Positions 9,156 through 57,306 of a stretch of 64,000 bases of DNA are shown here, one piece after another. The DNA is from Pseudomonadota bacterium (GTDB lineage Bacteria; Pseudomonadota; Gammaproteobacteria; Steroidobacterales; Steroidobacteraceae): positions 4,237,716 through 4,301,715 of the forward strand of contig JBBCGI010000001.1 in NCBI GenBank assembly GCA_037200975.1, read 5' to 3'. The notes under the pieces are model-generated. The model saw only the letters and a list, made by a program, of their open reading frames with translations, did no database searches and was not told the DNA's origin. Position 1 is the stretch's first letter; every line of letters begins with the position of its first letter. The translations under genes were made by a program, and so were the position numbers.

Positions 9156-9240
9156 GCCGACGTGGTGGAATTGGTAGACACACTAGCTTGAGGGGCTAGC
9201 GGAGCGATCCGTGGGAGTTCGAGTCTCCCCGTCGGCACCA
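9156..9240 (+). tRNA. tRNA-Leu (GAG anticodon)
   Basis: An 85-nt class II tRNA. The acceptor stem GCCGACG (9156-9162) pairs with CGTCGGC (9230-9236), followed by A and an encoded CCA. The anticodon stem CTAGC/GCTAG encloses loop TTGAGGG, giving anticodon GAG (reads CUC/CUU). An extra arm is present before the GTTCGAGTC T-loop. It sits between secG and nuoA. Confidence 0.97.
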
Positions 9241-24008: not shown

Positions 24009-24085
<77 letters not shown>

Positions 24086-53458: not shown

Positions 53459-54673
53459 GTGAGCAGCCACCCGCAAGCCAAAAGAGTTCTTTCCGGAATG
53501 CGGCCGACGGGTCAGTTGCATCTTGGCAACTATCATGGCGCGCTCAAGAACTGGGTCGACCTGCAGTACCAGTACGAGTGTTATTTCTTCGTCGCCGACT
53601 GGCATGCGCTGACCACTGGCTATGAAGACACCAAGCAGCTGCCGAAATTCATCCACGAGATGCTCATCGACTGGCTGGCGGCAGGTCTCAATCCCGGTGT
53701 GTCGACGCTGTTCATCCAGTCGCAAGTGCCCGAACACGCGGAGCTGCATCTGCTGTTGTCGATGATCACGCCGCTCGGCTGGCTCGAGCGCGTGCCGAGC
53801 TACAAGGACCAGCAGGCCGAGCTCAAGGAAAAGGATCTCGCCACGTACGGTTTCCTGGGCTACCCGTTGTTACAGACCGCCGACATCCTGCTGTACCGCC
53901 CCGCGTTCGTGCCGGTGGGCGAAGACCAGGTGGCGCACGTGGAGATCACCCGCGAAGTCGCGCGCCGCTTCAATCATCTGTACGGCCGCGAGCCGGATTT
54001 CGAAGCCAAGGCCGAAAAGGCGATCAAGCTGCTCGGCGGCCGCAACAGCACGATGTACAAGCAGCTGCGCAAGAAATTCCAGGAAAGCGGTGACCAGCTC
54101 GCGCTGGAAAAAGCGCGCGAAACGGTCACCGGCAACACCCGCCTGACCGTGGCCGATCGCGAACGACTGCTGGGTTACCTCGAAGGCGGCAGCGTCAGCA
54201 TCCTGCCCGAGCCACACGTATTGCTGACGGCGACGCCGAAGGTGCCCGGCCTCGACGGCCGCAAGATGTCGAAGTCCTACGGCAACACCATCGGCCTGCG
54301 CGAAGATCCGGACGAGGTCGCGAAGAAGCTCAAGCAGATGCAGACCGATCCGGCGCGCGTGCGCCGCACCGACCCGGGCAATCCCGACATCTGCCCGGTG
54401 TTCGACCTGCACAGGATCTATTCCAGCGAAGAGACGCGCATCTGGGCGGCGAACGGCTGCCGCACCGCCGGCATCGGCTGCCTCGAGTGCAAGAAGCCGC
54501 TCATCGACAAAGTGGTCGAGGAGATCGGCGGCATCCGCAAACGCGCGCAGGAATATGAAGAAAATCCGGAACTCGTGCGCAACATCGTCGCCGAGGGTGC
54601 GGAGAAGGCGCGCGAAGCGGCGCGCGCCACGCTCGACGATGTTCGTCGCGCGATGAATCTGCGAGTAGATTGA
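53459..54673 (+). CDS. trpS: Tryptophanyl-tRNA synthetase
   Basis: A 404-residue class I aminoacyl-tRNA synthetase charging tRNA-Trp. HIGH-type motif PTGQLHLGNYHG (about residues 16-27) and KMSKS in LDGRKMSKSYGN. The body is longer than the E. coli protein (about 334 residues), with extra sequence around KKFQESGDQLALEKARETVTGNTRLTVADRERLLGYLEGG, a feature of the longer proteobacterial TrpS group. The GTG at 53459 is needed to include RVLSGMRPTG; an ATG at 53498 would cut this conserved strand. No ribosome site precedes it. It leads trpS-scpA-scpB-rluB-like. Confidence 0.95.
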   Translation: MSSHPQAKRVLSGMRPTGQLHLGNYHGALKNWVDLQYQYECYFFVADWHALTTGYEDTKQLPKFIHEMLIDWLAAGLNPGVSTLFIQSQVPEHAELHLLLSMITPLGWLERVPSYKDQQAELKEKDLATYGFLGYPLLQTADILLYRPAFVPVGEDQVAHVEITREVARRFNHLYGREPDFEAKAEKAIKLLGGRNSTMYKQLRKKFQESGDQLALEKARETVTGNTRLTVADRERLLGYLEGGSVSILPEPHVLLTATPKVPGLDGRKMSKSYGNTIGLREDPDEVAKKLKQMQTDPARVRRTDPGNPDICPVFDLHRIYSSEETRIWAANGCRTAGIGCLECKKPLIDKVVEEIGGIRKRAQEYEENPELVRNIVAEGAEKAREAARATLDDVRRAMNLRVD

Positions 54674-54678
54674 GGCCC

Positions 54679-55749
54679 ATGTCCAAGAAAGCCGCCAAGC
54701 CCGATCTGCACCTGGTCGTGAACACCGTGTCTGACAGAGTTGGCGACGACGCCGTTGCCGACAAGCTCGCAGGAGCGCCCGAACAAGTGGAAATGCCTTT
54801 CGCGTTGGTCAATGGCGAGCCGATCACGCAGCTGCCGAAGGATCTGTACATCCCGCCGCAGGCGCTCGAAGTGTTCCTCGACGCGTTCGAAGGTCCGCTC
54901 GACCTGCTGCTGTACATGATCCGGCGGCAGAACCTCGACATCCTCGACATTCCGATCGCCGACATCACCAAGCAGTACATGGAGTACATCGGCCTCATGG
55001 CCGACATGCAGCTCGAGCTGGCCGGTGAATATCTCGTGATGGCCGCGACGCTGGCCGAAATCAAATCGCGCATGTTGCTGCCGCGCGCCGTGGATCCGAA
55101 CGCGGGCGAGGAGAGCGATCCGCGCGCCGACCTCGTGCGCCGGCTGCAGGAATACGAGCGTTTCAAGACCGCGGCGGAAAGCATCGATCGCATCCCGCGC
55201 ATGGACCGCGACACCTGGGTGGCGACCGCCGAGCTCGGCGAGCGCAAATCCGCGCGGCCGCTGCCGCAGATCGCGATGCAGGAGATGCTGTTGGCGTTCC
55301 GCGACGTCGTGCAGCGTTCCGAGATGTTCGCGCACCACCACGTGCAGCGCGAGCGGCTGTCGGTGCGCGTGCGCATGTCTGATATTCTCGCGTCCCTCGA
55401 ACGCGCCAGCTTCGTCGAGTTCGTGCACATGTTCCGGCCGGAAGAGGGCCGCATGGGTGTCACGGTCACCTTCGTGGCGATTCTCGAGCTGGTGCGCGAA
55501 GGCCTGATCGACATCGTGCAGACCGAGGCGTACGCGCCGCTGCACGTGCGCAAGGCCGAGGGCAGCCGCGGCCTGCGGCTCGCGGTCGACAACGATTCGG
55601 GGGATGGCGACGCAGTGGATAGTGTCACCGTCATCGACGATGAGCCCGACATCACCGCCGGCGAAGCGGTCATGGAAGACGCGGTGGCCGCGAACGATAC
55701 GGACATCGAAGAAGCAGACGATGCAAAGGACGGAGAAACGCATGAGTGA
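54679..55749 (+). CDS. scpA: Segregation and condensation protein A
   Basis: A 356-residue kleisin that bridges SMC heads. Core: VFLDAFEGPLDLLLYMIRRQNLDILDIPIADITKQYMEYI, then LELAGEYLVMAATLAEIKSRMLLPR (both N-terminal SMC-neck contacts) and a C-terminal winged helix (FVEFVHMFRPEEGRMGVTVTFVAILELVREGLIDIVQTEAYAPL). Longer than usual, with a 55-residue basic/hydrophilic N-terminus and an acidic C-terminal tail of about 45 residues. ATG at 54679 chosen; a TTG at 54670 overlapping the trpS stop is the alternative. Overlaps scpB by 8 bp. Confidence 0.94.
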   Translation: MSKKAAKPDLHLVVNTVSDRVGDDAVADKLAGAPEQVEMPFALVNGEPITQLPKDLYIPPQALEVFLDAFEGPLDLLLYMIRRQNLDILDIPIADITKQYMEYIGLMADMQLELAGEYLVMAATLAEIKSRMLLPRAVDPNAGEESDPRADLVRRLQEYERFKTAAESIDRIPRMDRDTWVATAELGERKSARPLPQIAMQEMLLAFRDVVQRSEMFAHHHVQRERLSVRVRMSDILASLERASFVEFVHMFRPEEGRMGVTVTFVAILELVREGLIDIVQTEAYAPLHVRKAEGSRGLRLAVDNDSGDGDAVDSVTVIDDEPDITAGEAVMEDAVAANDTDIEEADDAKDGETHE

Positions 55750-56509
55750 TGCATACATCAAGAATGTGGTCGAAGCGGCGCTGCTGGCCGCGGCGCGTCC
55801 CGTGTCCGTGGCCGAACTGCTGCAGATTTTCGACGAATCCTCACGCCCGACGGCCAAGGAAATGCGCGCCATCCTCGAGGCGGTCACCGCCGACTACGAG
55901 GGCCACGGAGTCACCATCAAGGAAACCGCCACCGGCTTCCGTTTCCAGGTGCGCACGGAGTTCGCGCACGAAGTGTCGCGCCTGTGGCCCGACCGGCCGC
56001 GCAAGTATTCGCGTGCGCTGCTCGAAACCATCGCGCTGATCGCGTACCGGCAGCCGATCACGCGCGCCGAGATCGAGAACGTGCGCGGCGTCGCCGTGAA
56101 TCCTGAAATCGTCAAGACGCTCATGGAGCGCAACTGGGTGCGCGTCGTGGGGCACCGAGACGTCCCCGGCCATCCGGAGTTGTTGGGCACCACCACCGAG
56201 TTCCTCGACTACTTCTCGTTGAAATCCATCGAGGACCTGCCACCGCTGGCCGATCTCAAGTCGCTCACGGAGCTCAACCTGCAATTGCCGTTGCCCGTGT
56301 CGGGCGAGGGCACGTCGGAGAGCGGCGACACGCTGGTGGCAGAACACGTCGATTCCGGCGAGGTCGCCGTCGTGCCGGTGGTCGATGAAGGTTCGGACGA
56401 GCCTGCCAGGGAAGCGTCTTCGGACGACGATGGCGACGACGAAGAATTGTCCGCGCCCGGCAACGGCGCCGCGGGTCTCGTGGCGGCGCCGCCGTCCGAC
56501 GAAAGTTAG
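55742..56509 (+). CDS. scpB: Segregation and condensation protein B
   Basis: A 255-residue partner of ScpA with two winged-helix domains. Typical: VVEAALLAAARPVSVAELLQIF at the start, TGFRFQVRTEFAHEVSRLWPDRPRKYSRALLETIALIAYRQPITRAEIENVRGVAVNPEIVKTLMERNWVRVVGHRDVPGHPELLGTTTEFLDYFSL. The last 80 residues are a low-complexity acidic tail, as in many ScpB. ATG at 55742 overlaps scpA by 8 bp. Confidence 0.95.
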   Translation: MSDAYIKNVVEAALLAAARPVSVAELLQIFDESSRPTAKEMRAILEAVTADYEGHGVTIKETATGFRFQVRTEFAHEVSRLWPDRPRKYSRALLETIALIAYRQPITRAEIENVRGVAVNPEIVKTLMERNWVRVVGHRDVPGHPELLGTTTEFLDYFSLKSIEDLPPLADLKSLTELNLQLPLPVSGEGTSESGDTLVAEHVDSGEVAVVPVVDEGSDEPAREASSDDDGDDEELSAPGNGAAGLVAAPPSDES

Positions 56510-56529: not shown

Positions 56530-57306
56530 ATGGCGCGTCCGCACACGACGCAGGCCGGCATCGCCGAGCGCCTGCAAAAATATCTCGCGCAGCGGGGCGT
56601 GGGTTCCCGCCGGGCCATCGAAGAATGGATTCGCGCCGGGCGCATTTCCGTCAACGGCAAACTCGCCGAGCTCGGGCAGAAGGTCTCTCACGCGGATGAC
56701 ATCCGCCTCGACGGCCGCGCCGTCAAGACCCGCGCCACCGATGGCACCCACCTCTTCATGTTCAACCGCTCGCCCGGCGATCCGCTGCGCGAAGCCAATG
56801 GCGAACGTGCGGCGCTGATCGATCGCCTGCCGCGCGCCGCCGGCCGGCGCTTCATCGCCGTGAGTCCGATGCCCGGCATCGATGGCGGGCTCGAGCTGGT
56901 CACCTCGGACGGTGCGCTCGCCGCGAAGCTGCAGCGTGCGATCCACAAGTTGCCCTGCGAATTCAGCGTGCGCGTCAAAGGGCAGCTGGGCCCCGATCAG
57001 CTCGAAGGGGTGAAGAGCGGCAAACTCGACCGTCCGGCACGCATGATCATCGACAGCCTCAAACACAGCGAGGCGGACCTCGAGGGTTCGAACCGCTGGT
57101 ACGCCGTCGTGGCGCGCGGCGCCAGTGGCAAGGATATCCGCCAGCTGTTCGAGCGCCAGGGCGCACTGGTGAGCCGCGTGCTGCGGATCTCGGTGGGTAG
57201 TTTGAAGCTCGAGAAGGATCTGGCCCGCGGCCAGCACCGGCAGCTCGACGAAGTCCAGACCGCGGCGCTCACCAGTGGCGCCGCCCGGGCAGAATCGGAA
57301 GAGTAG
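56530..57306 (+). CDS. RluB/RsuA-family protein lacking the catalytic Asp
   Basis: A 258-residue protein of the 16S/23S pseudouridine synthase family, at the position where rluB is usual (after scpB). The N-terminal S4 domain is intact (AERLQKYLAQRGVGSRRAIEEWIRAGRISVNGKLAELGQKV). The catalytic GRLDxxTxGLL motif instead reads SPMPGIDGGLE at residues 112-122, so the Asp nucleophile position is Pro115 (codon CCC, 56872-56874); the flanking T-x-DG (125-128) is kept. The basic segment usually reading GRNREVRRLWE is GASGKDIRQLFE. It looks like an S4-domain RNA-binding pseudoenzyme, or a protein with changed chemistry. The frame is clean, so it is not a decaying gene. Confidence 0.9.
   Translation: MARPHTTQAGIAERLQKYLAQRGVGSRRAIEEWIRAGRISVNGKLAELGQKVSHADDIRLDGRAVKTRATDGTHLFMFNRSPGDPLREANGERAALIDRLPRAAGRRFIAVSPMPGIDGGLELVTSDGALAAKLQRAIHKLPCEFSVRVKGQLGPDQLEGVKSGKLDRPARMIIDSLKHSEADLEGSNRWYAVVARGASGKDIRQLFERQGALVSRVLRISVGSLKLEKDLARGQHRQLDEVQTAALTSGAARAESEE

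Follow-up and report, generated by a model that had tools for sequence, protein, structure and literature searches.

The window, a 64,000-nucleotide stretch of DNA, comes from a genome (G000) that consists of a single 4.65 Mb contig, and its organism is placed in the Steroidobacteraceae by named relatives. The locus has the gene order scpA-scpB-rluB, and this neighbourhood is conserved in the Steroidobacteraceae and in the order. The gap between scpB and the third gene is 20 bases, and the third gene is a clean reading frame encoding 258 amino acids. The only Rfam matches within the window are two tRNA genes (24009-24082 and 9156-9237, +). The features of the locus are:

54670-55749, + strand: scpA, overlapping scpB (PF02616, E 2.8e-31).
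55742-56509, + strand: scpB, the upstream neighbour (PF04079, E 1.6e-50).
56530-57306, + strand: putative RluB-derived pseudoenzyme, 258 aa, with an S4 domain and a degenerate RsuA/RluB-type catalytic domain (S4 Pfam match, NCBIfam RluB match, model alignment to 4LGT).
56566-56703, + strand: S4 RNA-binding domain, residues 13-58; R27 corresponds to the RNA anchor Arg17 of E. coli RluB.
56863-56883, + strand: rewritten motif II, SPMPGID, residues 112-118, with Pro115 for Asp110, Pro113 for Arg108 and Asp118 for Thr113.
56962-56964, + strand: Phe145 in place of RluB Tyr140, from the alignment (F in 62/120 and Y in 53/120 family proteins).
57115-57144, + strand: rewritten motif III, RGASGKDIRQ, residues 196-205, with K201 at Arg194 and R204 as the retained Arg197.

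By sequence, the best solved relative of the window protein is E. coli RluB (E 4.9e-35). It retains an intact S4 domain (PF01479, 43.8 bits), as the preliminary description of this DNA had stated, and the catalytic Pfam domain PF00849 was undetected in a Pfam profile search. The protein scores 131.9 bits against the NCBIfam RluB model NF007976, under the 290-bit cut-off, and 59.4 of 318 bits against the RluF model NF007784; with SPMP and not GRLD, it does not qualify as an RluF either. The segment SPMPGIDGGLE (residues 112-122) aligns gap-free to GRLDVNTCGLL of E. coli RluB. This places Pro115 at Asp110, the catalytic aspartate (PMC3919597), in agreement with the original proposal that a proline has taken its place. 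Motif III had also been described as altered, and we found that GRNREVRRLWE of RluB reads ASGKDIRQLFE in the window protein. Also gone is Arg108, which in RluB fills the gap that the flipped-out U2605 leaves in the stem, and a lysine occupies the position of Arg194 within motif III (PMC3919597). The change of Tyr140 to Phe145 was overlooked in the preliminary description; RluB Tyr140Phe retains about 3% activity (PMC3919597). The equivalents of Arg17, which anchors the RNA loop from the S4 domain (PMC3919597), and of Arg197 are retained. The family name given earlier, RsuA/RluB/TruA, should read RsuA/RluB/RluE/RluF, since TruA belongs to a separate family.

An AlphaFold model of the window protein, built from 37 sequences (pLDDT 86.7, pTM 0.74), has the RluB-RNA complex 4LGT as its best structural match (Z 21.1, rmsd 2.9 over 239 residues, TM 0.79), and it also matches the RluF structure 3DH3 (Z 20.4). 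The predicted fold is that of RluB. In the model, the former Asp position is in the middle of a loop and D118 immediately precedes a strand.

These replacements extend far beyond the window. We aligned 120 proteins encoded in the same slot beside scpB in Steroidobacteraceae (scpB-slot proteins) to the RluB columns, and both the Asp and the Arg are missing from every one: the Asp110 column holds P in 85, A in 16, Q in 12, G in 4, H in 2 and N in 1, and the Arg108 column P in 102, T in 10, A in 7 and S in 1. Tyr140 is replaced in 67/120, and about a quarter of the proteins have a residue other than R or K at the Arg194 column. Other positions are kept: the Arg17 equivalent in all 118 readable proteins, R or K at the Arg197 equivalent in 120/120, an acidic residue at the 113 column (window 118; D 116, E 4) in 120/120, and Gly at the 115 column (window G120) in 120/120. 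The sequence is uninterrupted in 117/120, and the remaining three have one stop in the extracted range. GRLD is present in all 73 comparison sequences (59 RluB and 14 RluF, RsuA-like or other), and in the other families of the order all 16 tree-set genomes carry scpA and scpB beside a GRLD-bearing RluB. A sequencing error or frameshift, which the preliminary description had named as a way in which its proposal could fail, is rejected because the same residues are replaced in 120 genomes. The aligned sequences confirm that the loss of catalytic residues in the scpB-slot RluB is family-wide and not due to chance. In two genomes of genus g13 (G034 and G106, 95-100% complete), none of the three proteins (scpB-slot protein, canonical RluB, RluF) was convincingly present; they are possibly misplaced bins or a real loss.

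In a quick tree search of the RluB family, the scpB-slot proteins of Steroidobacteraceae form one clade (SH-aLRT 98) nested inside RluB, and RluB together with this clade (98 rows) is set apart from the RluF and RsuA types with a support of 99. The tree thus places the scpB-slot protein in the RluB lineage by descent, and the best explanation is a single rewriting of the active site in the family's common ancestor. The proteins are under purifying selection: among 45 closely related pairs, dN/dS (omega) ranges from 0.006 to 0.5, with a median of 0.15. In 12 clade-A genomes, the scpB-slot copy and the canonical copy of the same genome are 62% identical in the S4 domain and 28% in the catalytic domain, and only 4% in the segment 131-138, which in RluB is tied to helix-93 specificity (PMC3919597). 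Among the scpB-slot copies of these genomes, motif II is 77% and motif III 75% identical, compared with 56% for the whole catalytic domain. The corresponding catalytic-domain mean for the canonical copies is 71%, so the scpB-slot copies evolve faster. What used to be the active site is therefore conserved, though in a new form; this speaks against decay and bears out the initial view of a maintained protein with a clean frame and not a wreck. That the gene is a decaying redundant copy, temporarily retained since an active RluB or RluF exists, would fit its faster evolution but is very improbable given the omega value, the uninterrupted frames in 117/120 and the conservation of the new motifs above the domain mean.

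The preliminary description had left it open whether the modification is done elsewhere or lost. A search of the window genome for a second RluB with GRLD found one at G000 C1:3251243-3251938, 58% identical to E. coli RluB and scoring 290.6 bits against the NCBIfam RluB model (cut-off 290); modification elsewhere is therefore the better option here. The same genome contains a second synthase of the RsuA/RluF type (G000 C1:528960-529712, L004), whose 139 of 318 bits is far under the RluF cut-off.

We surveyed RluB and RluF in 125 Steroidobacteraceae genomes of at least 90% completeness, tallied by hand and with a partial RluB at a contig end in G141 counted as present. In eight genera (67 genomes), an ectopic canonical RluB is present in 63/67 and RluF in none. 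In fourteen genera (58 genomes), RluF is present in 51/58 and canonical RluB in none, and the two do not occur together in any of the 125. RluF was not found in 23 genomes of the order outside the Steroidobacteraceae (E 1e-45 or better). A tree of ScpA+ScpB groups the RluB-bearing genera into a single clade (support 99), nested among the RluF-bearing ones (84-87 on the relevant branches), so the exclusivity of RluB and RluF reflects one or two events and not 125 independent ones. The simplest history is that RluF was gained and catalysis was lost in the scpB-linked RluB, both in the family ancestor, and that one clade later gained or alone kept the canonical RluB and lost RluF, still keeping the pseudoenzyme. 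The ectopic canonical RluB proteins form a clade (support 89) on an unresolved backbone, compatible with transfer or an old paralog. A swap in which RluB took over the chromosomal site of RluF was rejected, as the loci compared share no flanking genes. Some RluF-type genera carry a further GRLD-bearing RluB-like group (FPVGRLDADSTGLL, EGQNREIRR; L164, L165, L166, L167, L075), and G006 has an RluB-like protein of the FPVGRLDADSTGLL type without a full RluF and without a canonical RluB.

The target bases themselves are unchanged. Each of the 20 genomes in which the 23S site could be read has U at both 2604 and 2605, and loss of the target base is therefore rejected. We observed a change in the helix 93 pair beside the flipped base, at the following site of the window genome:

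G000 C1:3129957-3129992 (L184): 23S rRNA helix 93 site, with the A2588-U2606 change seen in the RluB-bearing clade.

G2588-C2606 has become A2588-U2606 in 8 of the 10 readable genomes of the RluB-bearing clade, with G105 and G140 retaining G2588-C2606. The latter pair is present in all 22 readable genomes of RluF-bearing genera, and C2606 is kept in the other RluB-bearing families of the order. A2588-U2606 is a compensatory change.

From these results, the reading that we favour, with somewhat better than even confidence, is that the scpB-slot protein is an RluB-derived pseudoenzyme that still docks on 23S rRNA helix 93 and aids assembly or folding without catalysis, the modification having passed to another enzyme. 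Catalytic inactivity is predicted, and strongly implied. After a single rewriting of the active site of the scpB-linked RluB in the family ancestor, the protein would most likely neither flip out U2605, as Arg108 is missing, nor isomerise it, as Asp110 is missing. With its fold and S4 anchor retained, it probably continues to bind helix 93 within pre-50S particles; the loss of the segment 131-138 is the main ground for caution on helix 93 as the target. The docked protein would then act in assembly or folding, and the modification would have passed to RluF in the basal genera (predicted Psi2604) and to the ectopic canonical RluB in the clade of the window (predicted Psi2605). The role of an RNA-binding assembly factor, which the preliminary description had suggested, is plausible and in keeping with the conserved S4 domain. 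The title of PDB 9CL9 describes RluB bound in an assembly fraction particle, whereas in E. coli re-expression of RluB failed to rescue assembly in a Delta10 strain (PMC11194073), which counts against such a role. A more specific version, which we hold only tentatively and at somewhat under even chances, is that the former active-site cleft was rebuilt (mostly as x-P-[ML]-x-x-x-D-G-G-L-E) to serve a new role, non-catalytic and under selection, on 50S precursors, and that the trade of RluF for an ectopic RluB moved helix-93 modification from one uridine to its neighbour.

The non-conserved segment 131-138 means that the RNA target of the pseudoenzyme may have changed. A protein that binds a different RNA (the scpAB mRNA of its own locus, a tRNA or a different rRNA, for instance) and is not a helix-93 or assembly factor would be in keeping with this loss, with the presence of S4 domains in several RNA-binding proteins and with the conserved scpA-scpB linkage. 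We consider this unlikely, as the same S4 RNA-anchor residue as in RluB is present in 118/118 and the scpB linkage was inherited from ordinary RluB and so says little about a new target.

Less likely still is that the protein remains an enzyme, with the acidic residue 118, three residues past the old Asp, as the nucleophile for a new target or in an altered geometry. That residue is acidic in every family protein, always with the old Asp lost, the new sequence of motif II is conserved, and the Arg197 equivalent is always R or K. However, the invariant G120 and D127-G128 fix the register without a gap, so that, judged from this register and the secondary structure, D118 occupies the place of Thr113, where a strand begins. 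The base-flipping Arg108 is also lost throughout, and Tyr140 and Arg194 are frequently replaced. The preliminary description had raised a D118 at the catalytic position as the case against its proposal; the ungapped register does not support it, but the invariance of D118 keeps it alive.

The putative pseudoenzyme shares with RluB, the 23S Psi2605 synthase of E. coli (PDB 4LGT, 4LAB, 9CL9), its fold, the S4 anchor, the order-wide scpB linkage and a tree position inside RluB; unlike RluB, it is without Asp110 and Arg108 and often without Tyr140, its motif III is rewritten and its 131-138 segment is not conserved. RluF, the 23S Psi2604 synthase, shares the fold, and its target nucleotide neighbours that of RluB. 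In contrast to the scpB-slot protein, RluF has GRLD, and in Steroidobacteraceae it is encoded by a gene of its own, which is confined to genomes without canonical RluB. TruB has chaperone activity. Catalysis-independent roles have been noted for RluD (PMC12641178) and for the RNA modification enzyme METTL15 (PMC11197891). The likeness to all three is a modification-enzyme fold acting without its reaction; they are active enzymes with a second role, whereas the catalytic residues of the scpB-slot protein are absent family-wide. Going by PDB titles alone, a synthase fold also occurs in large-subunit assembly intermediates of the kinetoplastid mitoribosome (6YXX, 7AOI, 7AM2); these proteins are eukaryotic and distant (Z 9.5-9.8). 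Among open-licence papers, whose silence is weak evidence of absence, we found none on Steroidobacter RluB, scpB-rluB or a bacterial pseudouridine-synthase pseudoenzyme, and no earlier description in that literature of a pseudoenzyme of RluB origin that is fixed throughout a bacterial family and whose reaction has been reassigned.

For the Steroidobacteraceae, annotation by fold or by linkage, with rluB expected beside scpB, leads to a wrong modification prediction for the whole family. A long-standing question is what makes cells retain rRNA modification enzymes: the reaction that they catalyse, or their being present while the ribosome is assembled. In this family, evolution appears to have separated the two, with the enzyme body in nearly every genome and the reaction supplied by another gene, and through this separation, cultured Steroidobacter offers a direct way to test the question.
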